From: Labilibaculum filiforme
Lineage (GTDB): Bacteria; Bacteroidota; Bacteroidia; Bacteroidales; Marinifilaceae
Direction: 5' to 3'
NCBI RefSeq assembly: GCF_002843315.1
Contig: NZ_MVDD01000007.1
Coordinates: 1 to 64,000, forward strand
DNA length: 64,000 bases
The translations under genes were made by a program, and so were the position numbers. The notes beneath the pieces are model-generated. The model was not told where the DNA came from and did no database searches. It saw only the letters and a program-made list of their open reading frames with translations. Positions 5,465 to 23,419 of this stretch are shown here, piece after piece. The number at the start of each line of letters is the position of its first letter. The stretch's first letter is position 1.

Positions 5465-5508
5465 GATATGAGATTTTAGGAATGAGAAAAAATCCCATTC
5501 CAAATCTA
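5465..5508. repeat. Short dispersed repeat GATATGAGATTTTAGGAATG-type, copy 1
   Basis: About 44 bp between sufE and sufS. It is similar in order and wording to 8261-8306 (AAGATTTGAGAAATGAGATAAATCC, ending with CTACATCTAC versus CAAATCTAC here). A shorter version, ATATGAGATTTTAGAGGTGAG, occurs at about 57137-57157. The function is unknown. Confidence 0.4.
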
Positions 5509-5583
5509 CGAACGTATCTAATTTATATTTTTTTCAGCCGAAAGTTACAATAATTTTCTATCTGTGAAAATCTAACCAACGAA

Positions 5584-6810: not shown

Positions 6811-6866
6811 TCTATAAAATAATCAAATGCATCGCAACAAATACGATGCACTAAGATTAATTAATT

Positions 6867-8228
6867 CTAGTTTTTGCAGGCAATTGCACAAGTATTACAC
6901 TTCGAAATTTCGCCCCTTAATCGTGTATCCACTAAAGCATCAATTCGATCTTTAAGTGGCTCTACTCTAATTTTTTCGATTATTTCGTGAGCGAAAGCAA
7001 ACATCAACATCTGACGAGCTTCTTTTTCATCAATACCTCTTGCGCGAAGATAAAACAATGCATCCTCGTCCATTTGTCCAACGGTTGCTCCATGACTACA
7101 TTTCACATCGTCGGCATCGATAATTAGCTGAGGTTTTGTATTAATTTGAGCATCGTCGCTCAATAACAAATTGTTATTGGATTGATAAGCTAAGGTTTTT
7201 TGTGCATCGGGGCGAACGTAAATTCTGCCTGCAAAAGCTGCGGTGGCTTTTCCATCCATTACACCTTTAAAATGCTCGTTGCTTAAACAGTTTGGTTTCG
7301 CGTGATCGATAGAAGTAAAATTGTCGACATGTTGATCTTTATCCATCAAATACATTCCGAAGGTATGATTTTCGCAATGCTCGCCATCTAACAAAACGTG
7401 ATGATTGTTACGAATAGTTCCTCCATAAAGAGAAATTGTATTCGTAAGCACATTGGAATTTTTTTCCTGACGGATGAATGTAGAATTCAGAATTACAGAA
7501 TTTAAATGCTGATTTTGCAAGGTATACAAATCGAAGACTGCATTAGTTGCCACATTTATTTCGGTTACCGCATTACTTAAGTATTTGTGGTGCGTTAAAG
7601 TATGATCGCAAACAATTATTTTTGCTTGTGCATTTTCTTCAATCACGAATAAATTTCGTTGTGTTGCCAATAAATCCCGGTCGGAACGCAAAAGATTCAC
7701 TACCTGAATTGGCTTTTCGACTACTACTCCTTTTGGCACGTAAATGAATAAACCATCTTTTGCCAAAGCTGTATTCAATGCTACTAGTCCATCGTCGGCA
7801 GGCTTGGCATATTTGCCATAATGCGCCTCGAAAATAGCTGGATATTTTTTCGCAGCCTCCTGAACACCACAAACAATAACTCCTTTGGGTAATTCGGTAA
7901 GTGTTTTATTGTTGCCGTAATACCATCCGTTTGTTAGTAATACCATATTGGTATCCAACTCCGGCACATCGCACTGAAAAATATCATTCAAATCCACATC
8001 CACTTCCATATAACGAAGATTCACATTGTATGGATGATCGAAAGCAGGTATCAGATTGGTGTATTTGTAATTCTCGTTGGCACGAGTAGGTACGCCTAAC
8101 TTCTGAAACTGAACGAAAGCTTTTTCGCGAGCCTTATTCATGCAGTTGGAAGAACCATTTGTAAGCAATTCTTTCCCTTGCTCGAATAAATTGGCAAAAT
8201 CCTTATTTATTGTATCTATGTTGGCCAT
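6867..8228 (-). CDS. sufD: Fe-S cluster assembly protein SufD
   Basis: Subunit of the SufBC2D scaffold on which Fe-S clusters are built. The 453-residue protein has a SufD-type N-terminus with ANENYKYTNL and the C-terminal SUF-FeS beta-helix with MDKDQHVDNFTSIDHAKPNC and CSHGATVGQMDEDALFYLRARG, which ends in the alpha-helical tail. It stands between sufC and sufS, the standard order. It starts with ATG; the 76-bp gap to sufC holds a 7-bp stem hairpin (8246-8263) and a dispersed repeat. Confidence 0.95.
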   Translation of the reverse strand: MANIDTINKDFANLFEQGKELLTNGSSNCMNKAREKAFVQFQKLGVPTRANENYKYTNLIPAFDHPYNVNLRYMEVDVDLNDIFQCDVPELDTNMVLLTNGWYYGNNKTLTELPKGVIVCGVQEAAKKYPAIFEAHYGKYAKPADDGLVALNTALAKDGLFIYVPKGVVVEKPIQVVNLLRSDRDLLATQRNLFVIEENAQAKIIVCDHTLTHHKYLSNAVTEINVATNAVFDLYTLQNQHLNSVILNSTFIRQEKNSNVLTNTISLYGGTIRNNHHVLLDGEHCENHTFGMYLMDKDQHVDNFTSIDHAKPNCLSNEHFKGVMDGKATAAFAGRIYVRPDAQKTLAYQSNNNLLLSDDAQINTKPQLIIDADDVKCSHGATVGQMDEDALFYLRARGIDEKEARQMLMFAFAHEIIEKIRVEPLKDRIDALVDTRLRGEISKCNTCAIACKN

Positions 8229-8245
8229 GTTTTTTTAGATATTAG

Positions 8246-8306
8246 TCCCGATATGAATCGGGATAAGATTTGAGAAATGAGATAAATCCAATTTCCTACA
8301 TCTACT
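8246..8306. repeat. Hairpin plus dispersed repeat between sufC and sufD, copy 2
   Basis: Inverted repeat TCCCGAT/ATCGGGA (8246-8252, 8257-8263) followed by AAGATTTGAGAAATGAGAT, similar to 5465-5508. It could be a stabilising intercistronic hairpin or a small mobile repeat. The sequence alone does not decide. Confidence 0.4.
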
Positions 8307-9057
8307 ATTTTCCGTTTTCTTCCTTAATCCAGTCGTATCCTTTTTCTTCCAATTCGAGAGCAAGCTCTTTACCGGCAGTTTTTACAATTCGACCATCAAA
8401 CAAAACATGTACAACATCAGGAACGATATAATCTAATAAACGTTGGTAGTGAGTAATCACGATTGTTGAGTTCTCTGCTGTTTTCAATTTATTCACTCCA
8501 TTTGCTACTACACGAAGCGCATCGATATCCAAACCAGAATCAGTTTCATCTAAAACGGCCAATTTTGGTTCCAACATTGCCATTTGAAAAATCTCGTTCT
8601 TTTTCTTCTCTCCACCAGAAAACCCTTCGTTTACCGAACGATTTGTTAGTTTTGAATCGATTTCAACCAAATTTTTCTTATCGCGCATCAGTTTTAAAAA
8701 ATCGGATGCCGTTAATGGTGCCAATCCTTTGTGCTTACGATGCTCGTTAACTGCAGTTTTCATGAAGTTAACGGTAGAAACTCCAGGAATTTCGATTGGA
8801 TACTGAAAACCTAAGAAGATGCCTTCTTTTGCACGATCTTCCGGTGCCATATCCAATACGTCTTTTCCTTGAAATACAATCTCACCTTCGGTTACTTCGT
8901 ATAAATCTCTTCCTGCCAACACCGAAGCCAAAGTACTTTTACCAGCACCATTTGGTCCCATTATAGCGTGAACTTCTCCTGGTTTCACCTCCAGATTAAT
9001 TCCTTTTAAGATTTCCTTTCCATCGATGGAAACGTGTAAATTTTTAATGCTTAACAT
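8305..9057 (-). CDS. sufC: Fe-S cluster assembly ATPase SufC
   Basis: ABC-type ATPase of the SufBC2D complex (250 aa). Walker A GPNGAGKST, a Q-loop region near FLGFQYP, the SufC-specific signature SGGEKKKNEIFQ, Walker B AVLDETDSGLD and the switch histidine in VITHYQRLL are all present. It lies 125 bp downstream of sufB and 76 bp upstream of sufD. It has no membrane segment, as expected for this cytoplasmic ABC protein. Confidence 0.97.
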   Translation of the reverse strand: MLSIKNLHVSIDGKEILKGINLEVKPGEVHAIMGPNGAGKSTLASVLAGRDLYEVTEGEIVFQGKDVLDMAPEDRAKEGIFLGFQYPIEIPGVSTVNFMKTAVNEHRKHKGLAPLTASDFLKLMRDKKNLVEIDSKLTNRSVNEGFSGGEKKKNEIFQMAMLEPKLAVLDETDSGLDIDALRVVANGVNKLKTAENSTIVITHYQRLLDYIVPDVVHVLFDGRIVKTAGKELALELEEKGYDWIKEENGK

Positions 9058-9182
9058 CTATATTTAGATTTTTGCCATTAGCGTATTGCCATTGGCTATT
9101 AACATTTAGTTTATTCTGCCAGTAAATAATCAACTGGTCTTTGCAAATTAGCTACAAACAATATACTAGCTAAAATTTATAT

Positions 9183-10634
9183 TTATCCTACGGATCCTTC
9201 CAAGCTAATTGCCAAAAGCTTTTGAGCCTCAACAGCAAACTCCATAGGCATTTTATTGATTACCTCTTTGGCATATCCGTTTACAATTAAACCAATGGCA
9301 TCCTCGGTAGAAATACCTCGCTGATTGCAATAGAAAATTTGATCTTCACCAATTTTAGAGGTAGTAGCTTCGTGCTCAACTTTAGCAGATTTATTGCCAA
9401 TTTCGAGATAAGGGAATGTGTGTGCTCCACATTTGTCTCCTAAAAGTAATGAATCGCACTGAGAAAAGTTACGAGCTCCTTCACAATTCTTGGTTACCTT
9501 AACCAATCCCCGGTAAGAGTTGCTGCTTTTCCCTGCTGATATTCCTTTCGAGATAATCGTGCTTTTGGTATTGTTACCAATGTGAATCATTTTTGATCCG
9601 GTATCGGCTTGCTGATGATTGTTAGTAACCGCAACCGAATAAAATTCGCTCGACGAACCATCCCCTTTTAAAATAGTAGAAGGGTATTTCCAGGTTACTG
9701 CCGATCCGGTCTCCACTTGAGCCCACATCAACTTGGAATTTACACCCTGACAAATACCTCGTTTGGTTACAAAATTATAGATACCACCTTTGCCTTCTTT
9801 ATTACCCGGATACCAGTTTTGCACGGTAGAATATTTCACCTCTGCATTATCCTTCACAATAATTTCGACAATGGCTGCATGCAACTGATTTTCATCACGC
9901 ATAGGCGCCGTACATCCTTCCAAATAACTTACGTAACTATCATCTTCACATACAATTAAAGTACGTTCGAACTGACCCGTATTTTCGGCATTAATACGGA
10001 AATAGGTAGACAGCTCCATTGGGCAGCGAACCCCTTTCGGGATGTACACAAAAGAACCATCGGAAAATACAGCAGAATTTAAAGCTGCAAAAAAGTTATC
10101 CTGAACAGGAACTACTGTTCCCATGTATTCCTGAATTAAATCGGGATGTTCCTGAACGGCATCGCTAAATGAGCAAAAAATAACACCTTTCTCAGCCAAA
10201 GCCTGCTTAAAGGTAGTTTTCACCGACGACGAATCCATTACCACATCCACAGCAACATTCGCCAATAGTTTCTGCTCATCTAATGGAATTCCCAGCTTAT
10301 CGAAAGTGGCACGAATTTCAGGATCAACATCATCCATACTTTCCAATTTCGCTTTCTGTTTTGGTGCCGAATAAAAAATGATATCCTGATAATCGATAGG
10401 AGGAATCTTTAAATATGCCCATTCCGGCATTTTCATAGTCAACCAATGACGATATGCTTTTAATCGAAATTCAAGCATAAATTCAGGCTCATTTTTCTTA
10501 GCCGATATCATTCTAATAACATCTTCGCTAAGGCCTTTGCCTATATCATCATTTTCAATATCGGTTACAAAGCCATATTTGTAATCACTTTGTGTTACCT
10601 CATCTAGTATTTTATCTTGTTCTTCTTTTGCCAT
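9183..10634 (-). CDS. sufB: Fe-S cluster assembly scaffold SufB
   Basis: First gene of the suf operon. The 483-residue protein matches full-length SufB: an N-terminal helical part with [10 protein letters not shown] and QDIIFYSAP, then the beta-helical core with [22 protein letters not shown], the cysteine in YLEGCTAP, and a C-terminal block [13 protein letters not shown] followed by [15 protein letters not shown]. SufB carries the nascent cluster and receives sulfur from SufE. No isc genes are seen in the window, so SUF may be the main system. A possible promoter -7 box on the minus strand is TATATTTG at 10806-10813, but no -33 partner is clear. Confidence 0.97.
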
Positions 10635-11200
10635 GTTATTTAAGTATCAGGTAGAAAGCTTCCAAATCGAATATGATTTTTTATACTTCCTTAAAAGAAT
10701 TCAATATTTTAAATTAAAAGGGAAGCAGTGAAGAGCTTCATTTCTGTAGAAAAAACTAAAACCATTCAGCGAACTCACAATTGCATGCCCCAATGAAATT
10801 TCATGCAAATATAATAAAGTATTTAGATATCTTTTTAAATTGAAGCGAATAAAATACCTAGAAGTCCTTTTATTTAGTGCCGTAATTTAAATGGAAAGGA
10901 TGCATTTGCGGAGAGAAGATTTCCCAATACTTTTTCAAACTACTTTTTTAATTGAATTTACAGCTCTGTATTTTGCATGCCGCGCAATTAAAAAAAATAT
11001 TAACCAACCTTACATAAATTAAACCCAATATTTTTTACACTTTGTAAAAAAGGCTGTAAATCAAGAAACATAAGAGATACAGAGTTTATTTAAACCCTAC
11101 CATTGAAATATTTATCAATATTTAACAAATGAAGGGGTTACCTTTTTAACATTTTAGGAATTAATAGGTAAATCACAACAGCCAACTAATAGTTCAACAC
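10635..11200. other. Intergenic region between the suf operon and the RiPP locus
   Basis: A 566-bp divergent spacer without a credible gene. It should carry the suf promoter (candidate TATATTTG, 10806-10813, minus strand) and the promoter of the HTH gene. A strong palindrome, TTTTTTACA-CTT-TGTAAAAAA (11031-11051), lies 150 bp before the HTH start and could be an operator or a terminator-like hairpin. Composition becomes strongly AT-rich to the right of about 10980. Confidence 0.5.
11031..11051. promoter_or_regulatory. Palindrome upstream of the RiPP locus, possible operator
   Basis: Perfect 9-bp arms TTTTTTACA and TGTAAAAAA around a CTT centre. It is the most symmetrical sequence between sufB and the HTH gene. 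A regulatory role is inference from position only. Confidence 0.35.
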
Positions 11201-11416
11201 ATGACACATTTAGAGTTTTTAGAAAAAGTGGAGTTCGTTAAAGAACTAATAACTATTGGAAGTACAGGCACTCCAGCAGAACTAGCCCAACGATTAAACA
11301 TTTCGGAACGTAGTTTGTATCGAATTATCTCCTCTTTAAAAAATATGGGACACCCAATTACTTACAGCAGATGCAAGCAAAGCTATTGTTATGTAACTGA
11401 AAAGGAGGAGGTATGA
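11201..11416 (+). CDS. Small HTH protein, probable regulator of the RiPP locus
   Basis: A 71-residue protein consisting of little more than one helix-turn-helix: TPAELAQRLNISERSLYRIISSLKNMG with a DeoR/HTH_11-like pattern, then a short wing-like ITYSRCKQSYCYVT. Small stand-alone HTH proteins of this kind occur next to double-glycine peptide genes in other Bacteroidota, so a regulatory role for the cluster is likely but not shown. It has no effector domain. The ATG at 11201 is preceded by an AT-rich leader. It is separated from the precursor gene by 338 bp of structured non-coding DNA. Confidence 0.7.
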   Translation: MTHLEFLEKVEFVKELITIGSTGTPAELAQRLNISERSLYRIISSLKNMGHPITYSRCKQSYCYVTEKEEV

Positions 11417-11754
11417 TTGTGAAAAATCTCTCTATAAGGATAAATAGATTCCTTTCGGCAACCTACTATCTATATTATATGATGTTCAATTTAACCGTTA
11501 TTTAGAATGCCCCAATTACCTTTCTATTATGTGAATCACAACAATCCTAATAACTACAATAAATACAATACAAAATCAATAGGTAAATTAGACTTAATAA
11601 AAAATAATCTCACTGCCAAATAGTGGCAGTGAGCTTTCATAACTTGCTTCTCGAGTTTATCAATATGCGCATAACAAAACTCAAAGCCCTAGATCTCGTT
11701 CGAGGAGACAAGGGCAAAATTAAAGTTAATATTAATTAAAAAAAATTGTTAAAT
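11417..11754 (+). promoter_or_regulatory. Structured leader region before the precursor gene
   Basis: A 338-bp spacer holding two hairpins. The first is a perfect 10-bp stem CTCACTGCCA/TGGCAGTGAG (11609-11618, 11624-11633); its T-rich side reads on the minus strand, so it may terminate leftward transcription. The second (11686-11715) pairs GCCCT with AGGGC around an inner CTCG-TT-CGAG and lies 40 bp before the precursor start. The region may contain the precursor's own promoter, but I cannot point to a clear TTTG/TAnnTTTG pair. Confidence 0.45.
11665..11739 (+). CDS. Possible 24-residue upstream open reading frame
   Basis: ATG to TAA encoding a 24-residue peptide, MRITKLKALDLVRGDKGKI plus five residues. 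It ends 15 bp before the precursor ATG and overlaps the 11686-11715 hairpin, a layout seen for leader-peptide attenuators. It is short and could be chance; nothing beyond position supports expression. Confidence 0.25.
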   Translation: MRITKLKALDLVRGDKGKIKVNIN

Positions 11755-12012
11755 ATGAAAAATTTAGCCGAATTGGATAATTCATATCCATCTTTTTCCG
11801 AAATGAAACTATCAAACAAAGAAATGAATTTACTTGCAGGTGGTAGATGTGAATCTGTTTGTTACAAACAATGTACAACAAAGAAAAAAACAACAACAGT
11901 TAAAATCGAATGTGGAAATAAGAAAAAAGCCAGTGCACTGGTTCAAGATCTTCCAAATCTAGCGCCTGAATATCCAGGAGAAATAGGTCATATTACTATT
12001 ATTCATCCTTAA
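11755..12012 (+). CDS. RiPP/bacteriocin precursor with double-glycine leader
   Basis: An 85-residue peptide. Residues 1-30 form a leader ending in LSNKEMNLLAGG, the Gly-Gly pattern cut by C39 peptidases and typical of Bacteroidota natural-product precursors. The predicted 55-residue core (31-85) has four cysteines, C32-x3-C36-x3-C40-x12-C53, a Lys/Thr-rich middle (TTKKKTTTVK) and a Pro/Ile-rich, cysteine-free tail ending in HITIIHP. I start at the ATG 11755 rather than the in-frame TTG at 11746, because it gives the usual MKNLxEL leader start. It stands directly before the processing genes. The type of modification (thioether, epimerisation or other) cannot be read from sequence. Confidence 0.8.
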   Translation: MKNLAELDNSYPSFSEMKLSNKEMNLLAGGRCESVCYKQCTTKKKTTTVKIECGNKKKASALVQDLPNLAPEYPGEIGHITIIHP

Positions 12013-12019
12013 ATTAAAT

Positions 12020-12053
12020 GGGTGTCCTATTTATTAGTGACACCTATTTTCAT
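12020..12053 (+). terminator. Hairpin after the precursor gene, possible partial terminator
   Basis: GGTGTC-CTA and TAG-T-GACACC pair around a short T-rich loop (about 12021-12047), followed by TATTTTC. It begins 8 bp after the precursor stop and ends before the ATG at 12063. Such a hairpin would let precursor mRNA be made in excess over the enzyme genes, as is common in RiPP operons. The U-run is weak, so read-through is expected. Confidence 0.5.
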
Positions 12054-12062
12054 CAAAAACAT

Positions 12063-13133
12063 ATGAAATACTTCATCTATTGTATTATGCTCCTTTTGCC
12101 GTATTCTGTAACAGGACAGAACAACTATGACACTTTTTTAAAGCAAGACCATCCAACCCCAAACAATTATCTAAAATCGATTTTTAAGCAGAAAGATATT
12201 GTTGTCTTTTGCGAAAGAGATCATCCGGAAACCACTCAATACGATTTTTTTTATGGACTTGTTTCTCAAAACTGGTTCATCGAAAATGTTGGAACAATAA
12301 TTATCGAAGTTGCAACACAAAGTATTCAAAAAGAATTGGATGATTATCTAATTAATGGAAATAATACGTTACTACTTAGTATATGCCGTAATAATACACA
12401 TAGTCCTTTATGGCAAAAAACCAACTTTCATGATTTTCTGAAAAGAATACATACGTTAAACTTCAGCTTAAAAAAGGAACAAAGGATAAGAATTATAGGT
12501 GCAGACATACCGTTTAACTGGAGCAATATCAAAAACAAAACTGATTTAGCTAATTTTAAAAATAGCTCTGTATACTTGAATAGAGATGAATCAATGAGCA
12601 CGTTTATAATCGATTGGTATAAGAAAGCACCAAAAATTAAAAACAAGGCTTTAGTAATAATGAACTATCGACATTCGTATGGAAATTTATATTCTACTAG
12701 TGCTCAAAATTCATATACACCCAACTGCTATAGATTTATTAGAATAGCTTTACCTGAAATCAGCACCAATGTATTTTTGAATAGGTTCACATACTCCAAA
12801 TTTCTAGGATTAAGAAAGAAGCATGGTAAAGGTAAATGGGATAAATCATTTCTTAAAAACGATAATAAGCCCCTTGGTTTTGCATTAAAAGACTCTCCCT
12901 TTGGAATTGACCTATTTGATGATTACCCATATCTTAAAACGGATTTAAAGTGGCAGGATTTTTTTGATCATTTTATATTTTATAATCCAATTAATGAATT
13001 CATTAATTCTTTTGGAGTGAAAAACCTTGTTGATGATAGTTTCAAATCTGAATTAACAAGAAGATACCGCCTGTTTGGTAATAAATTATCGGATAAAAAA
13101 ATTCTAAAAATAAATACAATTAAAACTTATTAA
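12063..13133 (+). CDS. Secreted EreA/ChaN/TIKI-superfamily-like protein in the RiPP locus
   Basis: A 356-residue protein with a clear signal peptide (MKYFIYCIMLLLPYSVTGQ, cleavage near residue 19). An upstream ATG (12018) would bury this signal and overlap the hairpin, so I reject it. After the signal come VVFCERDHPETTQYDFF (His54), GTIIIEVA (Glu82), IRIIGADIPF (Asp148) and NYRHSYGN (His204). This order resembles erythromycin esterases and the related ChaN/TraB/TIKI enzymes, where a GExxH-type motif and a following Glu line the active site. It abuts the rSAM gene (stop 13131-13133, next ATG 13134). Its role is unknown: periplasmic peptide processing, immunity or core modification are possible. 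Family assignment is by motif only. Confidence 0.6.
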   Translation: MKYFIYCIMLLLPYSVTGQNNYDTFLKQDHPTPNNYLKSIFKQKDIVVFCERDHPETTQYDFFYGLVSQNWFIENVGTIIIEVATQSIQKELDDYLINGNNTLLLSICRNNTHSPLWQKTNFHDFLKRIHTLNFSLKKEQRIRIIGADIPFNWSNIKNKTDLANFKNSSVYLNRDESMSTFIIDWYKKAPKIKNKALVIMNYRHSYGNLYSTSAQNSYTPNCYRFIRIALPEISTNVFLNRFTYSKFLGLRKKHGKGKWDKSFLKNDNKPLGFALKDSPFGIDLFDDYPYLKTDLKWQDFFDHFIFYNPINEFINSFGVKNLVDDSFKSELTRRYRLFGNKLSDKKILKINTIKTY

Positions 13134-14636
13134 ATGCTAGAAAAAATAATAATATTTAATCCTTACTATCATATACATCATGATATAAATAGAGCATTTA
13201 TCTTAAATGATAATTTTTTTCAAATTGATAACGAAGTTGCAAAATCAGAATTTCATACCTTAATACATCCTATTCAAGCTTCTTTTTTATCTTTTTTTGA
13301 TGGTGAACATAAACTTTCAGAAATTCTACCTAAAATTGCTAATTTTCTAAGAATATCAGAAGAAGAAGCGCTTGAAAAAGTTAATATGTTTTACTATAAC
13401 CAGGAAATAAATGTAGAATATGATAATCATGTTTTTGGCCTACCTCCTAACTTACTTATAGAAAAATCAAATGTTCCAAGAAAAACGAAATACAACCCAT
13501 CTGATTTTTTAATGACCAAGAATTTTTTAGATCTAAAGCAGAATAGATTTAACAAGCCTAATAATTTTACAATTGTTATTAATAATATTTGCTATACAAA
13601 CTGCAAGTATTGTTATGCTGATAAGAAAGAAGCTCGTCAGTGTCAGTTATCCTCTATGCAATTTGGGAAAATAATTAGTGATGCTCATCAATTGGGAATT
13701 AAACAAATTGACATAACTGGAGGTGAGTTATTCCTATATAAAGAATGGTATGAGTTACTTACAGAACTAAAAAACTATAATTACTTCCCATATATATCTA
13801 CAAAAGTACCAATTAACGAACAACAGATCATAAAGTTAAAAGGGCTTGGTTACGATTTTATACAGTTCTCTTTAGACTCTGCTGATCCACTAACACTTAC
13901 AGATCTTTTAGATGTCGATGAGAATTACATTTCTAAAGTAAAAGAGACACTAAGCAATTTACAAAAACATGGTTTTAAGGTTACTATAAACACTGTCCTA
14001 ACCAATAAAAACTCAGACAGAAACCAGTTAAACCAACTTATAAATTTCCTAAACAAGTATGAAAATGTAAAAGAAGTTCAGTTTGCAGTTATGGGTTATT
14101 CAATCAATATGACATATGAAAATTATATGGACTATAAAATGAAAAAATCTAAATTGGCTGAATTAGATAAGATTGTAGATGAATTACAATCAGTATATTC
14201 GAAGAAAAAAATAGCTATAGCAGGATTTTCAGAAGAAAAAGAATATGTTGCATCCGTAAGTGAAAAAACTAAATCATTTAATGAAAGAGCCATGTGTTCT
14301 GGGAATTTCAATAGCTTTATTATGCTTCCTAATGGAGATGTAACCATCTGTGAAGAGTTATATTTTAGAGAAAACTTTATTATGGGCAATCTTCTAGAAA
14401 ATACAATTGATGAAGTTTGGAATTCAGATAAAGCTAAAAATTTATTCTATTTAAAAAACCTATTTGAAAACAGCCATTCTATCTGCAAGGAGTGCTCAAT
14501 TATCGATGAATGCAGGATATCTGGTTTAGGAGTTTGTTGGACAGAAATAATAGGTGCTTACGGAGAAAATAATCTAAGTTATCCAGATCCAAGATGCCCA
14601 CATGCCCCAACATTCAATAAAGAGGTATATTATTAA
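13134..14636 (+). CDS. Radical SAM/SPASM peptide maturase with PqqD/RRE-like N-terminus
   Basis: A 500-residue radical SAM enzyme. The [4Fe-4S]-SAM motif is C153-x3-C157-x2-C160, followed by ITGGELFL (the GGE motif). The C-terminal SPASM region has Cys388, 406, 451, 454, 460, 468 and 488, enough for two auxiliary clusters. Residues ~35-95 (HTLIHPIQASFLSFFDGEHK to NMFYYNQE) resemble the PqqD-like RiPP recognition element that binds leader peptides. SPASM maturases make thioether, C-C or epimerised residues in peptides; which one is unknown here. It starts at the base after the previous stop, which indicates translational coupling, and precedes the exporter by 12 bp. Confidence 0.88.
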   Translation: MLEKIIIFNPYYHIHHDINRAFILNDNFFQIDNEVAKSEFHTLIHPIQASFLSFFDGEHKLSEILPKIANFLRISEEEALEKVNMFYYNQEINVEYDNHVFGLPPNLLIEKSNVPRKTKYNPSDFLMTKNFLDLKQNRFNKPNNFTIVINNICYTNCKYCYADKKEARQCQLSSMQFGKIISDAHQLGIKQIDITGGELFLYKEWYELLTELKNYNYFPYISTKVPINEQQIIKLKGLGYDFIQFSLDSADPLTLTDLLDVDENYISKVKETLSNLQKHGFKVTINTVLTNKNSDRNQLNQLINFLNKYENVKEVQFAVMGYSINMTYENYMDYKMKKSKLAELDKIVDELQSVYSKKKIAIAGFSEEKEYVASVSEKTKSFNERAMCSGNFNSFIMLPNGDVTICEELYFRENFIMGNLLENTIDEVWNSDKAKNLFYLKNLFENSHSICKECSIIDECRISGLGVCWTEIIGAYGENNLSYPDPRCPHAPTFNKEVYY

Positions 14637-14648
14637 TCTTTATTTTTT

Positions 14649-16841
14649 ATGAAATTCAATACTTATATCCAACACGATGCAATGGATTGTGGAGCCACTT
14701 GCTTAAGAATGATTGCCAAATATTATGGCAAGAATTATAATGCACACAAATTGCAAAGTCGAACTTACATATCAAGAGAAGGGGTAACTTTACTAGGTAT
14801 AAGTGATGCCTCAGAAAGCATAGGCATGCGAACATTAGGGGTTAAAACCACCTTTGATAAGCTTGAAAAAGAAAAAGTTACCCCTTTTATTGTTCATTGG
14901 AGACAAGAACATTTTGTTGTGGTTTACAAAATCACAGCAAATAATGTTTTTGTTGCCGATCCTGCAATAGGTAAAGTAAATTATTCAAAAAGTGAATTTA
15001 TAAAACATTGGGCAAGTACAGTAGAAAATAGCGAAAAAAAAGGTGTTGCATTGTTGTTAAATCCTTCACCTGATTTTTATTTGCAAAATGATGAAGATAT
15101 AGATAAGGCAAAAGTAGGCTTCCTTTTAGAATATCTTCGTCCACATCGTAAGCTTATTATCCAGCTTTTTATAGGCTTTACTGTGGGTAGTTTATTACAA
15201 TTGATACTTCCATTTTTAATGCAAAGCATTGTTGATTTTGGAATATCTAATCAAAATTTGAATTTTGTTTATCTCGTCCTCATCGCTCAAATGATTCTAT
15301 TGATCAGTCAAATGTCAGTCGAGTTTATTAGCTCATGGATATTATTACATATTAGTACAAGAATTAATATTTCGCTAATATCCGATTTTTTGATAAAATT
15401 AATGAAGCTTCCAATTAGTTTTTTTGATTCGAAAATGACTGGTGATCTAATACAACGTATTGATGATCACACGAGAATAGAGGATTTCCTGACAACGCAA
15501 ATAATATCTACAGTATTCTCCGCTTTTAACCTAATTGTTTTTGGAGCTGTTCTTGCTTGGTATTCGTTGAAATTATTAATGATATTTCTTTTGGGTTCGA
15601 CTCTCTATATTTTATGGATTTCAATTTTCATGAAGAAACGTCGAGAATTAGATTATAAACGTTTTCAGGAATCTTCTTCAGAACAAAGTAGTGTAATCCA
15701 GTTAATTCAGGGTATGCAAGAAATCAAACTTCATAATGCAGAAAAACAAATGAGATGGGGTTGGGAGCATATTCAAGCGAGATTATTTAAAATAAGTATA
15801 AAAGGTTTAACCCTTAGTCAGTTTCAGCAATCAGGAACTATTTTTATTAATGGTGGTAAAAATATTTTCATTTCATTTTTCGCTGCTTATTCGGTTATAA
15901 AAGGTGATATGACTTTAGGTATGATGTTAGCGATACAATACATCATTGGCCAGTTAAATGGACCAATAGATAATTTTATTGGATTTTTACACTCTTTACA
16001 AGATGCCAAAATAAGCCTGGAAAGACTCGGCGATATTCACAAGACTAAAAATGAAGAAAGTGATGATTCAATTATCACATCAATAATGCCAGCAAATCAT
16101 ACGATAGAACTTAAAAATGTTGATTTTTATTATAACAATCCTCATAATGAAAAAGTTCTTAAAAATGTTTCTTTAGTAATTCCTCCAAATAAAGTAACTG
16201 CTATTGTAGGTTCAAGCGGAAGTGGTAAAACAACATTATTTAAATTACTTCTAGGTTTTTACCAAATTAAGCAAGGTGAAATATTATTAGGTAACAATCA
16301 TTTAAAAAACTACTCCCAATCGTGGTGGCGAGGACAAGTTGGTGCAGTATTACAAGATGGCTATATTTTTAATAGTTCAATTGCTACAAATATTGCTATA
16401 GGCCATGAATCCATTGATAAAACAAGACTTGAAGAAGCATCTAAGATCGCTAATATTCAAGAATTTATTGAGAATTTACCACTAGGTTATAATACTAAAA
16501 TTGGTGGTGAAGGCCACGGCCTAAGTCAAGGTCAAAAACAGCGTATTTTAATTGCCAGGGCTGTATACAAAAATCCTAAGTTTATTTTTTTTGATGAAGC
16601 TACAAACGCCTTAGACTCTACAAATGAAAAAATCATTATGAATAACCTTAATCAGTTTTTTAATGGCAGAACGGTACTCATAATTGCACACAGACTTAGT
16701 ACTGTGAAAAATGCCGATCAAATTGTCGTACTTAAAAAAGGCGAAATACTAGAGATAGGAACTCATAAAGAGTTAATTGCAAAACAGGGTGCTTATTATT
16801 CCCTCGTTGAAGATCAACTTGAACTAGAAGATATAAAGTAA
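14649..16841 (+). CDS. Peptidase-containing ABC transporter (C39), leader-cutting exporter
   Basis: A 730-residue inner-membrane protein in three parts. Residues 1-140 are a C39 peptidase with Q8, catalytic C14 (DAMDCGATC), H88 and D104; it cuts after Gly-Gly. About 155-440 is the six-helix transmembrane domain. About 475-730 is the ATPase, with Walker A GSSGSGKTT at 521-529, signature LSQGQ at 625-629, Walker B with D649/E650 and the AHRL switch. It should remove the 30-residue leader of the upstream precursor and export the core. No outer-membrane TolC-like gene is in the locus, so a partner encoded elsewhere is needed. All catalytic residues are intact. Confidence 0.95.
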   Translation: MKFNTYIQHDAMDCGATCLRMIAKYYGKNYNAHKLQSRTYISREGVTLLGISDASESIGMRTLGVKTTFDKLEKEKVTPFIVHWRQEHFVVVYKITANNVFVADPAIGKVNYSKSEFIKHWASTVENSEKKGVALLLNPSPDFYLQNDEDIDKAKVGFLLEYLRPHRKLIIQLFIGFTVGSLLQLILPFLMQSIVDFGISNQNLNFVYLVLIAQMILLISQMSVEFISSWILLHISTRINISLISDFLIKLMKLPISFFDSKMTGDLIQRIDDHTRIEDFLTTQIISTVFSAFNLIVFGAVLAWYSLKLLMIFLLGSTLYILWISIFMKKRRELDYKRFQESSSEQSSVIQLIQGMQEIKLHNAEKQMRWGWEHIQARLFKISIKGLTLSQFQQSGTIFINGGKNIFISFFAAYSVIKGDMTLGMMLAIQYIIGQLNGPIDNFIGFLHSLQDAKISLERLGDIHKTKNEESDDSIITSIMPANHTIELKNVDFYYNNPHNEKVLKNVSLVIPPNKVTAIVGSSGSGKTTLFKLLLGFYQIKQGEILLGNNHLKNYSQSWWRGQVGAVLQDGYIFNSSIATNIAIGHESIDKTRLEEASKIANIQEFIENLPLGYNTKIGGEGHGLSQGQKQRILIARAVYKNPKFIFFDEATNALDSTNEKIIMNNLNQFFNGRTVLIIAHRLSTVKNADQIVVLKKGEILEIGTHKELIAKQGAYYSLVEDQLELEDIK

Positions 16842-16863
16842 AATAACAATTAATTTTTTCAAC

Positions 16864-18150
16864 TTGGAAAAACCTAAAAATATAGAAATAAGAAGTGAAG
16901 AAATACAGGATATTCTCGGATCTGTTCCCTCTCGTATTGTTCGTATAGGAATAGGTATCGTTTTTTGTATTATAATATTCGTTATTTCCGGAACTTGGTT
17001 CTTCAAATATCCTGACATAATACAAGCAAAAATAACTCTTTACACAAAAACGCCACCAGTAGCATTGCAAGCAAAATCCAACGGAATGATAACGAGTCTA
17101 TTTGTAAGTGAAAATCAGCAAATAAATAAAAACCATGTCGTCGCTATTATTGAAAACACAGCTAACTATAATGATATCCAAATCTTAAAAGAAATTCTTG
17201 ACACTCTAAATTATACTCAGGAATTCCGTATACAAAGGAAACTTGAGTTAGGAGAATTACAATCAGCCTACACATCATTTTTAAGGCTCTGCAAAGATTA
17301 TATGTGTTTTATTAAAATAGATTATCATCAAAATCAAATACACTCAATAAATAGTCATATTACTGACCAAATAACTTATTTCAATATCCTTCAAAATCAA
17401 AAAGAAATTAAAATACAAGAACTCAATTTAGCGAAAGAACAATATGAAAGAGACAAAAATCTCTTTAATCAAGGTATATATTCGAAATTAGATTTTGAAC
17501 AATCACAAAAAAAATACCTCCAAGAAAAATTATCATATAATGATACAGAATCTTCTCTCGCAAATATAAAAATGCAAATCAATCAACTAAAACATAAAAT
17601 AAGTGAATTAAACCTACAACACTTAAAAGAGAAACAAACCCAAGAAATAATCCTAAATGAATCAATTGAAAACCTTAAAAGTTTAATTAAGAATTGGGAA
17701 ATGAAATTTGTCTTAAAGTCTCCAATAAATGGTGAAATCACATTAACAAAAATCTGGAGCAAAAATCAAAACATTAATACTGGCGAAACCGTAGCAACCA
17801 TTATCCCAACAGACAACTCAAATATTATTGGACGACTCGAAATTCCAACTACAGGTATCGGCAAAGTCAAAATCAATCAACCAGTAAATATTAAATTAGA
17901 TAATTTTCCATATATGGAATTCGGACTGCTAAGAGGAACTATCTCTAACATTTCTCTTATCCCTTCTTCCATAAACGGTAATACCATATATACCGCAGAA
18001 TTAAATATTCCTGATAGCCTTATATCAAATTATGGAGAACATTTAAAATTTAATCAGAAAATGACAGGTATTGCCGAAATTTTAACCGATGACACAAGAT
18101 TATTAGAACGATTATTACATCCACTTAAAATGATCTATCACAAAAATTAA
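16864..18150 (+). CDS. HlyD-family periplasmic adaptor of the peptide exporter
   Basis: Membrane fusion protein that links the ABC exporter to an outer-membrane channel. The frame starts at TTG 16864; there is no nearby ATG and TTG gives the expected short cytoplasmic N-terminus (428 aa). One membrane helix spans about 25-47, followed by a biotinyl-lipoyl half (VALQAKSNGMITSLFVSENQ), a long coiled-coil hairpin (about 100-290) and a second lipoyl/beta-barrel part with SPINGEITL and TGETVATIIP. It lies 22 bp after the ABC transporter and is the last clear gene of the RiPP operon. Very AT-rich, like its upstream neighbours. Confidence 0.9.
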   Translation: MEKPKNIEIRSEEIQDILGSVPSRIVRIGIGIVFCIIIFVISGTWFFKYPDIIQAKITLYTKTPPVALQAKSNGMITSLFVSENQQINKNHVVAIIENTANYNDIQILKEILDTLNYTQEFRIQRKLELGELQSAYTSFLRLCKDYMCFIKIDYHQNQIHSINSHITDQITYFNILQNQKEIKIQELNLAKEQYERDKNLFNQGIYSKLDFEQSQKKYLQEKLSYNDTESSLANIKMQINQLKHKISELNLQHLKEKQTQEIILNESIENLKSLIKNWEMKFVLKSPINGEITLTKIWSKNQNINTGETVATIIPTDNSNIIGRLEIPTTGIGKVKINQPVNIKLDNFPYMEFGLLRGTISNISLIPSSINGNTIYTAELNIPDSLISNYGEHLKFNQKMTGIAEILTDDTRLLERLLHPLKMIYHKN

Positions 18151-18180
18151 CATAGTTAATAATTAAAAAAACAACTCAAA

Positions 18181-18657
18181 ATGAAAAACAACGACTTAAT
18201 TCAGGTCACATTTAACCCAGAAGAATTGACCGAAAACAATGCTCATTTAGATGCTTTGTTGGCATCGGCCAATAAAAATGCACCCGGTTTAACTCCCGAG
18301 CAGCGCTCCACCTATGGTTCGATAAACGAAACCAATAAATTATTGGTGAATAAAGCACGGGCAATTATGCATGAAAACCCTAAGTATGTGCCTAATTTTG
18401 TAGGCTTGGATGAGTTCGAGCGAGATTTCAGAGCCAGAGAAGTAATTGAAGACATGTTACGAAAAGTGGCTCAGATTCAACAAAAATTAAACGACACCAA
18501 AATTTTGCTGGACAACGACAATTATCAGGATGTAATGGCCTATTATCGTGCAATTCGTTACTATACCAGCGAACACGATCAGGAAGCCATGCCGCTTTAC
18601 AATGAATTAAAACAGTTCTTCCCAAATCATAAAAACGGACAAAAGGAAGAAGAATAA
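18181..18657 (+). CDS. Hypothetical protein, no recognised family
   Basis: A 158-residue soluble protein, mostly helical by residue pattern, with many Asn, Glu and Lys. It has no signal peptide, membrane segment or motif I recognise. Stretches such as NETNKLLVNKARAIMHENP and EDMLRKVAQIQQKLNDTK look amphipathic and could form a helical bundle. It follows the HlyD gene by 30 bp, so it could be co-transcribed, yet its codon use looks less AT-biased than the RiPP genes, more like the host chromosome. It may be a resident gene that marks the right border of the acquired locus. An immunity role is possible but unsupported. Confidence 0.65.
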   Translation: MKNNDLIQVTFNPEELTENNAHLDALLASANKNAPGLTPEQRSTYGSINETNKLLVNKARAIMHENPKYVPNFVGLDEFERDFRAREVIEDMLRKVAQIQQKLNDTKILLDNDNYQDVMAYYRAIRYYTSEHDQEAMPLYNELKQFFPNHKNGQKEEE

Positions 18658-18671
18658 AATTTCGAATTAAA

Positions 18672-18806
18672 AAAGGTGATCCAAAAAGTTCCATTTTATT
18701 GTCATTCTGAGCTTATCGAAGAATCTGCCGTATTAAGAGACAGATGTTTCGACTTCGCTCAATAGGACAACCCGATGCGAATTCTTCCTTTTTGGACCGC
18801 CTCTTT
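18672..18806. repeat. MITE-like dispersed repeat with imperfect terminal inverted repeats
   Basis: Ends AGGTGATCCAAAAAG (left) and CTTTTTGGACCGCCT (right) are imperfect inverted copies. The interior has TGTCATTCTGAGCTTATCGA and ATGTTTCGACTTCGCTCA, strings I know as widely interspersed intergenic repeats in Bacteroidota. It contains no gene. Confidence 0.55.
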
Positions 18807-18845
18807 TCTTTTGCCACATCTCTGCGCATACTGCCTTTTTTAGGT

Positions 18846-19080
18846 GCAATCGAATATCGAAGCTCCCAAACCGAGTATTGAACCACGGTTCGAGTTAAAA
18901 AAACCACACCGTATCGTGCTTCGAGGCACGAAAATCGAGTATCGAAACACGGTTGCGATTAAAAATTTTAACACGAAGTGTGGTTCCACCCTCGAAAATC
19001 GAGTATCGAGATACACTTCCGATCAAAAAGTTTGACAAGAATCGTGGTTCGATACTCGATTGAGCCTAAAAGTTTTGACT
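18846..19080. repeat. Degenerate ATCGAGTATCGA repeats, direct and inverted
   Basis: Three direct units share (A)ATCGAGTATCGAAACACGGTT-like sequence followed by (G)ATTAAAAA: about 18869-18904, 18933-18973 and 18997-19035. One inverted unit (CGTGGTTCGATACTCGATT) lies at 19043-19061. The unit spacing is about 64 bp. The copies are too divergent and too few for CRISPR. Short open frames across them are artefacts. Confidence 0.5.
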
Positions 19081-19173
19081 TGGAACCTAAAAAACTATTG
19101 TTAACAATCACAATGCCTGGCAAGATTCTAAAACCCGTCCCAGCTCCCCTCAATTCTATTTCCAATTTTTAGC

Positions 19174-19181
19174 TATCTTTG
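19174..19181 (+). promoter_or_regulatory. Probable -7 box of the thiL promoter
   Basis: TATCTTTG matches TAnnTTTG exactly and lies 28 bp before the thiL ATG. The -33 element is not evident in the expected window. Confidence 0.5.
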
Positions 19182-19209
19182 CAGGCAAATATCAATAATT
19201 AAGGATACT

Positions 19210-20256
19210 ATGCAGGAAAACAATGCTAAAGGAACTGATATCTCAACATTAGGAGAATTCGGATTGATTAAACACCTTACTAAAAATATAAAACTAAAAC
19301 ACGCAAGTACCAATGTGGGTGTTGGCGACGATGCTGCTATTTTAGATTATCAGAATAAAAAAACTGTGGTTACCACCGATTTACTGCTGGAAGGTATCCA
19401 TTTTGATTTAATGTACACCCCGCTTAAACATCTAGGCTATAAAGCAATTGCTGTAAATGTTTCGGATATTTATGCCATGAATGCTTTGCCAAAGCAGGTA
19501 ACGGTTTCTATTGCTATTTCGAAGCGATTTACTGTGGAAGCTCTTGAAGAAATTTACGAAGGAATCAATTTGGCTTGCGAAAATTACAATGTTGATTTAG
19601 TTGGTGGAGATACTACCTCCTCTTTAACCGGATTGTGTATTTCGGTTACTGCAATTGGTGAAGCTGATGCAGATCAATTGACTTATCGAAGTGGTGCAAA
19701 AGAAAATGATCTAATCTGCGTAAGCGGAAATTTAGGTGCAGCCTTTGCAGGATTACAACTACTGGAACGTGAAAAACGCGTTTTCGATAACAATCCAGCC
19801 ATGCAACCCGACTTAACGGGTCATGATTACATTCTGGAGCGTCAGTTAAAGCCAGAGGCTCGAAAAGACATTTATGAACGTTTACAGGAAGCAAAGATTG
19901 TTCCTACTTCAATGATTGATATTTCTGATGGTTTGTCGTCGGATATCATGCACATTTGCGAGGAATCGAAAGTTGGCTGTCAGATTTACGAAGAGAAAAT
20001 TCCTGTTGACTATGAAACGCACAAAATGGCCGAAGAGCTAAATATGAATTACAGTACTTTCTCGCTAAATGGTGGTGAAGATTACGAATTGCTGTTTACT
20101 GTTCCTTTGGATCAGTTCGATGCAATTCAAAAAATCGAAGATGTGAAAGTGATTGGTCACATCACGGCTATCTCGAAAGGAAAATATTTAGTAACACGAG
20201 ATGGAGTAGAAATTGAATTACAGGCACAAGGCTGGAATCCAATTGGAGAAGAGTAA
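19210..20256 (+). CDS. thiL: Thiamine-monophosphate kinase
   Basis: ThiL phosphorylates thiamine monophosphate to thiamine diphosphate with ATP, the last step of cofactor synthesis. The 348 residues match family length. Conserved metal/ATP-binding segments are GVGDDAAIL, TTDLLLEGIHFD, AVNVSDIYAMNA, GGDTTSS, VSGNLGAAFAGL, MIDISDGLSSD and LNGGEDYELLFT. It starts with ATG 19210, just after a TATCTTTG -7 box, so it is probably transcribed alone. No TPP riboswitch was recognised upstream. It is flanked by repeat blocks on both sides. Confidence 0.96.
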   Translation: MQENNAKGTDISTLGEFGLIKHLTKNIKLKHASTNVGVGDDAAILDYQNKKTVVTTDLLLEGIHFDLMYTPLKHLGYKAIAVNVSDIYAMNALPKQVTVSIAISKRFTVEALEEIYEGINLACENYNVDLVGGDTTSSLTGLCISVTAIGEADADQLTYRSGAKENDLICVSGNLGAAFAGLQLLEREKRVFDNNPAMQPDLTGHDYILERQLKPEARKDIYERLQEAKIVPTSMIDISDGLSSDIMHICEESKVGCQIYEEKIPVDYETHKMAEELNMNYSTFSLNGGEDYELLFTVPLDQFDAIQKIEDVKVIGHITAISKGKYLVTRDGVEIELQAQGWNPIGEE

Positions 20257-20269
20257 AAGCTTTAAATAT

Positions 20270-21000
20270 TCGGGCTGAAAGCCCAATTAAATTCAGCCCA
20301 GGGATATTTCCCTGGGTATTTTTGTGCTCGCAGAAAAACGCCCTGAAAGGGCAACTTATACCTATTTAACTCTCAAAACTCCTTAAATATATATAGACAT
20401 GAAGTCAACACAATTAGGCATATTATATCAGTACTCAATATTAATCCTTCCACAAATATTCTTCGTTATATTCAATTCCATACTCTTTTAAAAAATAGAA
20501 GATATTCATCTCTAAATGTCAGTTTTAGATGATGTTCTTCCTGATTTTCAATACATTGTTTCGTTTTATCGTACACAGAAAAACTAACAGAAAAGCCAAC
20601 ATAGCCTCCTTGCCAAGCAAATTTTGAGTAGTTAGATCCCTTCGTCTTAATCCAACGACTACTATGTCTCTTGATCTCTTCAACCAACTTTGCAAGTGCA
20701 ATATTCATGGACATTATACACAATATATGTACATGATCTTCAACTCCATTAATTATTATCGGAATTGAATCGTTATCTTTTATAATGGCACCAATATATG
20801 CATACAATTCTGCTCGGTTTTCCTTGCTTATTTTAATAGTATTATTCTTCACATGAAAAATAATGTGAACAAACAGTTTGGATAATGATTGTGCCATAAA
20901 ATATAAAGCTACCCTTTCAGGGCGTTTAATTAATATATCTTTATCGACCCAAGGCATTGCTTTGGGCTGAATTAAATTGCCACTTTGTGGCGCTAAACCG
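20270..21000. mobile_element. REP-flanked IS200-like (RAYT) element
   Basis: The two sides carry REP sequences in inverted orientation. On the left (20273-20353) are palindromes GGGCTGAAAGCCC, CCCAGGGATATTTCCCTGGG and GCCCTGAAAGGGC. On the right (20911-20995) are CCCTTTCAGGGCG, CCCAAGGCATTGCTTTGGG, the linker GCTGAATTAAATT and GCCACTTTGTGGC. The transposase gene lies between them on the minus strand. This is the usual architecture of Bacteroidota REP-associated tyrosine transposases. The enzyme looks inactive (see next entry). Confidence 0.7.
20451..20897 (-). pseudogene. REP-associated Y1 (IS200-like) transposase, frameshifted, catalytic Tyr lost
   Basis: From ATG 20897 the frame encodes a 141-residue Y1 transposase: MAQSLSKLFVHIIFH start, HUH motif in EDHVHIL (His55, His57), and FAWQGGYVGFSVSFS. 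Two defects are visible. In the helix KQCIENQEEHH the position that normally holds the catalytic tyrosine (YIxNQxxHH) is Cys115, codon TGT, one base from TAT. After EYLLFF the frame runs to a premature TGA (20472), whereas removing one T from the T6 run restores KEYGIEYNEEYLWKD and the normal stop at 20451. An upstream in-frame ATG (20957) lies inside the REP and is rejected. Confidence 0.8.
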
Positions 21001-21057
21001 CACTTAAGTTAACAATATCATTTAATATTAATCACCCCTACAACCATTTAAAAACAA

Positions 21058-21092
21058 AAAGTGAGATCCTCAATTGAAGATCTCACTTTTTG
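21058..21092 (-). terminator. Intrinsic terminator after lpxA
   Basis: Perfect 9-bp stem AGTGAGATC/GATCTCACT with a 10-nt loop, flanked by A- and T-runs on both sides, so it could work in both directions. It sits 20 bp beyond the lpxA stop. Confidence 0.8.
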
Positions 21093-21112
21093 TTTTTTTT
21101 TATCTATCGGTA

Positions 21113-21895
21113 TTACTCAGGAAAATATCCTCTCATAATGCCACGCTTCGAATTCTTTACAAACAGAATAATATCATCACGCTCAGGAGAAGCAGGCATT
21201 TCAGCCTCTATAGCTTCAAGAGCATTAAAATTATTCATTCCTTTTTGGTATAGGTAACGGTAAACATCCTGAATTTCACGGATTTTTTCATTTCCAAATT
21301 CACGACGACGCAAACCAATTGAATTCACACCAATGTAAGAAACCGGTTCACGACCTGCTTTTACAAATGGAGGAACATCTTTACGTACCAATGATCCACC
21401 CGAAATCATAACGTGTGAACCAATATGAACAAACTGGTGAATAGCAACCAATCCACTTAAAATAGCGAAATCGTCAATAATTACCTCGCCTGCAATTTGA
21501 GTTGCATTACCAATAATACAATTGTTACCAATAACACAATCGTGTGCTACGTGCACATAAGCCATTAACAAACAGTTACTACCTACAACAGTTTTTCCTT
21601 TAGCGGCAGTACCTCTATTAATGGTAACACACTCGCGAATGGTAGTATTGTCGCCAATTTCAACAGTCGTTTTTTCACCACGAAACTTTAAATCCTGAGG
21701 CACAGCTCCAATAACTGCTCCAGGAAACACCACGCAATTTTTACCAATACGGGTTCCTTCCATGATAGTGGCATTGGAACCAATACGAGTTCCCTCTTCA
21801 ATTACCACATTTTTATCAATGGTTACAAACGGTTCAATCACTACATTATCAGCTATTTTCGCCTCAGGATGTACATATGCTAACGGTTGCTTCAT
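21113..21895 (-). CDS. lpxA: UDP-N-acetylglucosamine O-acyltransferase LpxA
   Basis: First enzyme of lipid A synthesis: it moves the 3-hydroxyacyl chain from ACP to UDP-GlcNAc. It is a left-handed beta-helix protein with many hexapeptide repeats (VVIEPFVTI, ATIMEGTRIG, CVVFPGAVIG) and the catalytic histidine within AYVHVAHDCVIG. The frame extends to a GTG at 21928, but the ATG at 21895 begins MKQPLAYVHPEAKI, as in other LpxA proteins, and gives a normal 260 residues. It is the last gene of lpxD-lpxC/fabZ-lpxA and ends at a strong terminator. Confidence 0.95.
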   Translation of the reverse strand: MKQPLAYVHPEAKIADNVVIEPFVTIDKNVVIEEGTRIGSNATIMEGTRIGKNCVVFPGAVIGAVPQDLKFRGEKTTVEIGDNTTIRECVTINRGTAAKGKTVVGSNCLLMAYVHVAHDCVIGNNCIIGNATQIAGEVIIDDFAILSGLVAIHQFVHIGSHVMISGGSLVRKDVPPFVKAGREPVSYIGVNSIGLRRREFGNEKIREIQDVYRYLYQKGMNNFNALEAIEAEMPASPERDDIILFVKNSKRGIMRGYFPE

Positions 21896-21970
21896 CTTTT
21901 TTATATTTCGTTTTATGCAAAACTCCACTTTTAGGAAGTTATTGCGTAGCAGTAGTTACTAACTAATTAA

Positions 21971-23362: not shown

Positions 23363-23419
23363 AACTTGACATCAATATTTTTAAATTTCAGGTTCAATAA
23401 TTGAAGGAACAACCTCCTC

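Follow-up and report, generated by a model that had tools for sequence, protein, structure and literature searches.

The DNA considered here is a window of 64,000 nucleotides from Labilibaculum filiforme (positions 1–64,000 of contig NZ_MVDD01000007.1, assembly GCF_002843315.1; coordinates below are those of the window), in which a locus at 11.2–18.15 kb is best read as a complete operon for a ribosomally synthesised and post-translationally modified peptide (RiPP) matured by a radical S-adenosylmethionine (rSAM) enzyme. Six uninterrupted open reading frames (ORFs), which span 11201–18150 of the plus strand, encode in order a small helix-turn-helix (HTH) regulator, a double-glycine (GG) precursor, a putatively secreted protein like erythromycin esterase (EreA) and ChaN (hereafter EreA-like), an rSAM–SPASM enzyme, an ATP-binding cassette (ABC) exporter with a C39 peptidase domain, and a HlyD-type adaptor. 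The first-pass annotation of this DNA had described such a six-gene production line in an AT-rich setting, and both points hold: every ORF was found at its place and strand, with Pfam, TIGR, or fold evidence for each gene, and the GC content is 27%–32% in the seven 1-kb windows of 11001–18000 against 33%–40% per 1-kb window in the flanks (1–11000 and 18001–30000).

The precursor gene (11755–12012, plus strand) encodes 85 residues and was recognised by a sub-threshold match to TIGR04149 and by a rule that asks for a short ORF whose GG leader is followed by two or more cysteines, within 2.5 kb of an rSAM gene and counted strand by strand. Its leader ends in LLAGG, and its core opens with RCESVCYKQC and holds four cysteines.

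The rSAM–SPASM enzyme (13134–14636, plus strand, 500 amino acids) exceeds the Pfam cutoffs for both Radical_SAM (64.6 bits) and SPASM (44.1 bits). It possesses a CX3CX2C motif at residues 153–160 and SPASM cysteines between 388 and 488; in an alignment of 22 family members, Cys 153, 157, 160, 388, 406, 451, 460, 468, and 488 are invariant (22/22), and Cys 454 is kept in at least 90%. A cysteine-rich core (four cysteines) beside an rSAM–SPASM enzyme with the full set of cluster cysteines is the gene content of sactipeptide- and ranthipeptide-type loci. Among structures in the Protein Data Bank (PDB), the AlphaFold2 (AF2) model of the enzyme (mean predicted local distance difference test score [pLDDT] 85.5) matches SuiB best, followed by SkfB, the sactipeptide entries 5wgg/5why, and PqqE, and it is in these structural matches and the cysteine-rich cores that its likeness to the SkfB, SuiB, and 5wgg/5why maturases lies. 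It differs from the sactipeptide and streptide maturases in sequence, however, being 13%–17% identical to SkfB, SuiB, and 5wgg/5why, and among the best 25 matches listed the named NCBIfam peptide-maturase models (AlbA, SkfB, StsB, and others) score 30–63 bits against cutoffs of 265–850. No equivalog model among the listed matches reaches its cutoff, and the SPASM domain model does; the named sactipeptide families were rejected on these cutoffs. PADLOC models for viperins (pVip) also matched, at 58–64 bits, and were taken as generic rSAM cross-matches, since the SPASM domain, the operon, and the precursor fit a maturase.

The N-terminal domain of the rSAM enzyme is predicted by AF2 to run through strands to residue 44, helices at 46–52, 61–72, and 76–86, and strands at 92–103. 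An earlier proposal of an N terminus like PqqD, or like a RiPP recognition element (RRE), survives in this topology, which suggests an RRE-like domain, but not in Pfam: the call is made from topology because the PqqD model found no match in the 22 rSAM members at E 0.1. A profile search of the domain against the PDB gave only a weak match to a transcription regulator (E 0.32). SuiB itself bears an RRE.

Downstream, the C39-peptidase ABC exporter (14649–16841, plus strand, 730 amino acids) scores 125, 116, and 107 bits for Peptidase_C39, ABC_membrane, and ABC_tran and is 52.7%–56.5% identical to the exporters of seven related loci. The adaptor (16864–18150, plus strand, 428 amino acids) passes the HlyD_3 cutoff with 43.6 bits and falls below that of TIGR01843 (119.8 bits; cutoff 208.65). 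The components of double-glycine export are present within the operon, in the form of a GG leader with hydrophobic spacing and a C39–ABC gene. Genes of TolC type are found in the genome, with 29 of the 31 OEP matches above cutoff (mostly two per protein) and one of the two weak matches being the window's own HlyD.

The remaining gene encodes the EreA-like protein (12063–13133, plus strand, 356 amino acids). Its ORF opens at 12018, and the inner ATG at 12063 is probably the true start, since most relatives begin there. The N terminus MKYFIYCIMLLLPYSVTGQ, read by eye, suggests a secreted protein. An AF2 model built on a 15-row alignment (mean pLDDT 79.7, predicted template modelling score 0.82) finds as its best PDB matches in Foldseek BcR135 (3b55, E 2.4e-6) and then ChaN (2g5g, E 5.5e-4), with a weaker match to EreC (6xcq, E 0.039); BcR135 was also reached by sequence, with a profile of 15 domains (2rad, E 0.0012). 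Residues E51, H54, E82, and H204 are invariant in 15/15 rSAM-linked EreA-like domains, and the catalytic 2His/2Glu set is present in 43 of the 44 EreA-like domains compared, the remaining one being cut by a contig start. Fold and residues together place the protein in the EreA/ChaN/TIKI superfamily, to which TraB and PrgY also belong. In the available text of PMC6254334, the 2His/2Glu set is proposed to be common to active TIKI and Ere proteins and is essential in one member. A simple scan found at least one hydrophobic stretch in 12 of the 14 rSAM-linked relatives, several in L117, L118, L122, L132, L135, L163, and L171 and a single N-terminal one in L120, L140, L150, L151, and L155 (L numbers denote related loci or DNA stretches, and G numbers genomes, that were compared). 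Pfam recognises RDD domains in L163 and L132, two of five linked proteins tested, both of which fall in the RDD branch. Hydrophobic stretches and RDD domains favour a location outside the cytoplasm for these linked proteins.

The operon lies in a slot between sufB (upstream, minus strand, identified by its Pfam SUFBD core) and a downstream gene that we take to be thiL. The order is sufB, HTH gene, cargo, a gene for a 158-amino acid protein, and thiL, spanning 10634–19210 in the window. This 158-amino acid gene (18181–18657, plus strand), whose product has no Pfam match, forms the right border of the slot and lies outside the RiPP operon. The sufB–thiL distance is 8.6 kb in the window and 2.0–6.0 kb in six same-genus genomes (one contig each). 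In five of these (G028, G029, G032, G033, and G034), the order is a same-family HTH gene, a differing cargo, and a 158- or 159-amino acid gene; G027 has neither the HTH nor the 158/159-amino acid gene in the interval, and in G030, the HTH gene follows sufB and precedes other genes, with thiL on a different contig. Upstream of the cargo, the DNA of G029, G032, and G033 resembles that of the window as far as the start codon of the first cargo gene (11739–11761); downstream, similarity resumes at 18148–18169 in all five, 12–33 bases before the start of the 158-amino acid gene. The operon is one of several exchangeable cargoes in this slot. Acquisition, which the first-pass annotation had proposed from flanking genes and repeats, is more strongly supported than it was, since same-genus genomes carry different cargo at the same place; the repeats across the operon are short and imperfect, and the families listed, 20 of the 22 direct and 25 of the 59 inverted ones, include no clean flanking pair. 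Between the 158-amino acid gene and thiL, the stretch 18700–19070, partly similar in G029 (L203), also carries short imperfect inverted repeats (e.g., 18997–19061, 74% complementary).

The HTH regulator (11201–11416, plus strand, 71 amino acids; HTH_11 31 bits, cutoff 25) is present as originally listed, but its place in the production line has to be revised: it is 65%–82% identical to five same-genus copies and is assigned to the slot because it is retained beside other cargoes, so that a RiPP-specific role was rejected. Between it and the cargo lies a leader or promoter stretch (11417–11754, plus strand) aligned across six genomes, three of them over its full length. It contains a hairpin, CTCACTGCCA-AATAG-TGGCAGTGAG, at 11609–11633, whose arms are found in 6/6 aligned genomes with paired changes, and which may, like the stretch around it, function in expression. 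The best HTH matches outside the genus (G035, G038, G040, G036, G026, and G039) all lie in the sufB region, and five of these six genomes have two HTH copies, one on each side of the cargo. The 158-amino acid gene follows other cargoes in five same-genus genomes and, by eye, in five of the six stretches from other genera of the family.

Peptide, secreted-protein, or export cargo occupies the slot in different genomes. L228, L229, and L230 hold small GG-leader peptides containing cysteine together with a C39 exporter in the slot; L227 has a C39 exporter, no GG peptide being called there; L226 has a 73-amino acid glycine-rich peptide, and L225 has other secreted-type genes. By association only, the slot context favours a bacteriocin-like role. 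Within the genus, L199 (1406–3748) and L200 encode a secreted protein of 107 amino acids that resembles a glycine zipper and, after it, three more proteins, of which one belongs to the SpoIIM family (58 bits); the set is reminiscent of immunity and export genes for circular bacteriocins. The genome of the window has another HTH gene of this family in a second RiPP-type locus (L232, contig C5, around 275–287 kb), where it adjoins a precursor with a class I lanthipeptide leader (NF038153, 29.8 bits, cutoff 22); L232 also holds a C39 gene and a 404-amino acid protein that is LanC-like by eye.

The pairing of rSAM and EreA-like genes was followed in two surveys. The first, a search of 393 genomes of the order, gave at least 15 rSAM matches in at least 12 genomes (E 1e-25) and at least 31 EreA-like matches in at least 27 (E 1e-15); these are lower bounds because only three to four candidates were scored per genome. 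An EreA-like gene lies beside three of the rSAM genes found, namely, those of the window, G211 (L044), and G282 (L041), or two excluding the window; in L041 and L044 it was located by tblastn of the window proteins against the rSAM loci. The neighbourhoods of 23 of the 31 EreA-like matches were viewed (20 in addition to those of the window, G211, and G282). A hand estimate of chance adjacency, 15 × 31/393 × 5 kb/4 Mb, gives about 0.0015 expected against the three seen. The rSAM gene is sporadic, occurring in one of nine genomes of the genus (the window's own), and a related rSAM occurs in three of 56 genomes of the family, own included. A phylum-wide rSAM search of 395 genomes at E 1e-40 turned up three genomes, that of the window and two that were already in the set, and a scan of viral contigs with the rSAM found no relative.

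The second survey scanned genome contigs with an rSAM alignment and kept 80 of 150 relatives, giving 87 rSAM genes in 80 loci. The partner was the nearest EreA-like or beta-barrel gene on the same strand within 1.5 kb, and rSAM pieces below 300 bits were excluded, among them one of the pieces (the second) into which the rSAM of L102 is split. The co-occurrence that the first-pass annotation had suggested looking for is present: the nearest partner is an EreA-like protein for 14 of the 87, a beta-barrel protein (OMP_b-brl_3 with CarboxypepD_reg in one member tested) for 38, and neither for 35; one rSAM has both. L143, whose EreA-like gene is about 3.7 kb away from the rSAM and on the other strand, and L137, with an RDD-type gene cut by a contig end, were not counted as linked. 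Related loci also contain uncharacterised extra genes (L142:368–1396 and 7377–8778; L179:10528–11899), for example, those for proteins of 285 and 180 amino acids between two rSAM genes, which are perhaps further tailoring or immunity genes.

Linkage of the two genes has been gained or lost several times, judging from both phylogenies. On an rSAM tree made with a quick method, the EreA label changes eight times, at least five of them forced by well-supported branches; on an EreA tree of 44 domains, the rSAM-linked label (16 rows) also changes eight times, at least six of them forced, with L087 scored as stand-alone despite an adjoining 95-amino acid C-terminal remnant of an rSAM. The two sister rSAMs of L132 differ in their nearest partner. 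The changes on the trees are read here as repeated, probably separate recruitment of EreA-like genes. In L087 (422–2755; G295) and L044 (G211), an EreA-like gene is open beside a C-terminal remnant or fragment of an rSAM, the rSAM of G211 being open for 178 residues only before an ORF of the other strand; such an arrangement, seen as far as the contig ends allow, would fit retained immunity.

Precursors recur with the rSAM family. A GG-and-cysteine ORF accompanies 53 of the 87 genes on the same strand as the rSAM, against 2 of 87 on the opposite strand, counts in which neighbouring rSAM genes can share one precursor ORF. The excess is beyond chance, and the conservation on which the first reading had been staked is borne out. 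By partner class, a precursor was found for 24 of 38 rSAMs with a barrel protein, 10 of 14 with an EreA-like protein, and 19 of 35 with neither. Core types tend to track the rSAM clade: within one clade, a late C[TE]SG element is common to the EreA-linked L140, L141, and L164 and the barrel-linked L152 and L166, so that this type of product does not need the EreA-like protein. The pattern C[ED]xxCx2-3C[TVK][TS]..C..K is shared by the window and four of the 11 distinct EreA-linked cores, and by none of 51 others, but was drawn by eye after viewing the cores. Since the motif is post hoc and the four loci form a single EreA-linked clade—a different rSAM clade from that of the window—the resemblance is graded as a hint only. 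In L105, L116, and L119, where the rSAM genes of this family have neither partner within 1.5 kb, several adjoining GG precursors contain cysteine-rich repeats, which in L105 read Cys-x-Gly-Gly.

Among the families and literature searched, provisionally and mainly in open-access papers, this set of genes was not found under any named RiPP class, in agreement with the first-pass annotation; its suggestion that the combination with an EreA-like protein is novel stands as regards a named class but not as regards uniqueness, given that the pairing recurs in other Bacteroidales. The closest described clusters are the Bacteroidales RiPP clusters with an rSAM enzyme and a peptidase-containing ABC transporter (PCAT), such as BGC2 of Phocaeicola vulgatus, which share the GG precursor, rSAM, C39 exporter, and HlyD in the available text (PMC10352776). 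The P. vulgatus ATCC 8482 locus L168, probably BGC2 itself, has an rSAM of this family, a GG/Cys precursor, C39 and HlyD genes, and an HTH protein 23% identical to that of the window; no EreA-like protein was found in L168. BGC2 is described with an outer-membrane protein, unlike the window operon with its EreA-like gene, and for the nine such clusters studied, the paper records no homologue of any immunity protein described to date (PMC10352776). The presence of Ere homologues and Tiki/TraB peptidases near RiPP genes is already published, for graspetides, in the one paper among those examined to connect an Ere homologue with RiPP loci: in the part of PMC8939145 available, an Ere homologue is found beside a precursor and a double-glycine peptidase, with additional modification or resistance suggested and its role called unclear, and graspetide loci with Tiki/TraB peptidases often have an rSAM (PMC8939145). 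Graspetide loci carry ATP-grasp ligases, however, and this class was rejected for the window, where no ATP-grasp model is among the listed matches for the proteins of 11201–18657. PrgY, a membrane peptidase similar to Tiki, is thought to degrade the producer's own pheromone (PMC7117660, available in part); PrgY/TraB is the closest working precedent, and the membrane-anchored EreA-like relatives beside RiPP genes recall it.

The reading favoured here, at a probability of about one half, is that the locus is an exchangeable RiPP cargo operon in which the putative EreA-like hydrolase gives the producer self-protection and the peptide is a bacteriocin or a signal. Enzymes of the known families behave accordingly: rSAM maturases modify leader-bearing peptides, C39 domains cut at GG, and ABC/HlyD pairs export. 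The HTH gene and leader stretch would probably control expression. The rSAM–SPASM enzyme would probably use its RRE-like domain to bind the GG leader and modify the cysteine-rich core, with thioethers or other crosslinks as the likeliest chemistry. The C39 domain would then cleave after Gly-Gly, the ABC/HlyD pair would export the peptide, and a TolC-type outer-membrane channel encoded elsewhere may complete export. By analogy with PrgY/TraB, the extracytoplasmic 2His/2Glu protein may hydrolyse the producer's own or kin peptide and so protect or desensitise the producer, with the peptide probably acting against or among near relatives.

A number of observations weigh against this interpretation. 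The EreA-like protein scores 14.5 bits against Erythro_esteras (PF05139; gathering cutoff 26.4), which sets it apart from the superfamily whose fold and residues it shares, and it is only 9%–13% identical to the Ere/ChaN structures matched; the window protein, L141, and L164 have no hydrophobic stretch at the scan threshold. The precursor misses the curated TIGR04149 cutoff (22.6 bits, E 7.5e-5; cutoff 25 bits). Upstream similarity ends near 11.31 kb in G028 and G034, although G034 keeps a short piece around the hairpin. The 35 rSAMs with neither partner, some of them at contig ends, do not show the pairing, and the changes on the trees may be gains or losses. No C39 exporter lies beside the rSAM and EreA-like genes of L117, L118, L135, L151, and L164 (14.5–19.5 kb viewed). 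Finally, the window's EreA-like protein groups, at 100/100 support, with five genes from the same bacterial family that stand alone, to which it is 44%–48% identical, and not with rSAM-linked ones; this grouping and the many stand-alone genes mean that the protein may have a job broader than immunity.

The main rival, somewhat unlikely in our estimate, is that the EreA-like protein is a maturation enzyme, which would act on the modified peptide once C39 has cut it and it has been exported, trimming or hydrolysing it into the active form. Gene order suits such a role: the EreA-like gene sits between precursor and rSAM in the window and directly 3′ of the rSAM in 12 of the 14 linked loci (gaps of 4–66 bp or overlaps of 25–88 bp as called), lying 367–426 bp upstream of it in L140 and L141. 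A maturation role would also suit the loci in which an EreA-like gene accompanies the rSAM with no exporter seen, and the core pattern shared with the four-locus clade (4/11 versus 0/51, post hoc). Tiki/TraB peptidases of graspetide loci have themselves been proposed as leader-cleaving or maturation proteases (PMC8939145, available text). Set against this, a barrel protein takes its place, or neither partner is present, beside related pairs of rSAM and precursor, and C39, where present, already covers leader removal. Similar precursor types occur without an EreA-like protein, barrel-linked L152 and L166 sharing their cores with EreA-linked loci, and the protein is therefore probably not an obligate maturation step. 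Self-protection is favoured, with trimming as its chief competitor. It is improbable that the protein merely travels in the cassette while serving some unrelated purpose in the envelope or in antibiotic resistance: 28 of the 44 EreA-like domains compared, a non-random sample, are not beside an rSAM, but adjacency to one rSAM family occurs at several places on both trees and is commoner than the hand estimate for random placement. A decayed or silent locus without product, which the sporadic occurrence (one of nine genus and three of 56 family genomes) might suggest, is very improbable given six open ORFs with catalytic and cluster-binding residues kept.

Each part of the operon is of a known kind; the pairing of EreA-like protein and rSAM has no name that was found, yet it recurs in other bacteria. 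More tentatively than the reading of the locus itself, it may be that EreA/TIKI-fold hydrolases have been repeatedly and independently recruited as self-protection for Bacteroidales rSAM peptides and swapped against an outer-membrane barrel, in which case stand-alone copies would be orphan immunity genes in non-producers and the sufB–thiL slot a family-wide exchange site for peptide weapons. Immunity to Bacteroidales RiPPs is a gap; the EreA-like protein, which recurs next to one rSAM family, is a candidate for filling it that would be catalytic and act outside the cytoplasm. The cargo slot between the HTH/leader stretch and the 158-amino acid gene is a natural place for finding new peptides in related genomes.

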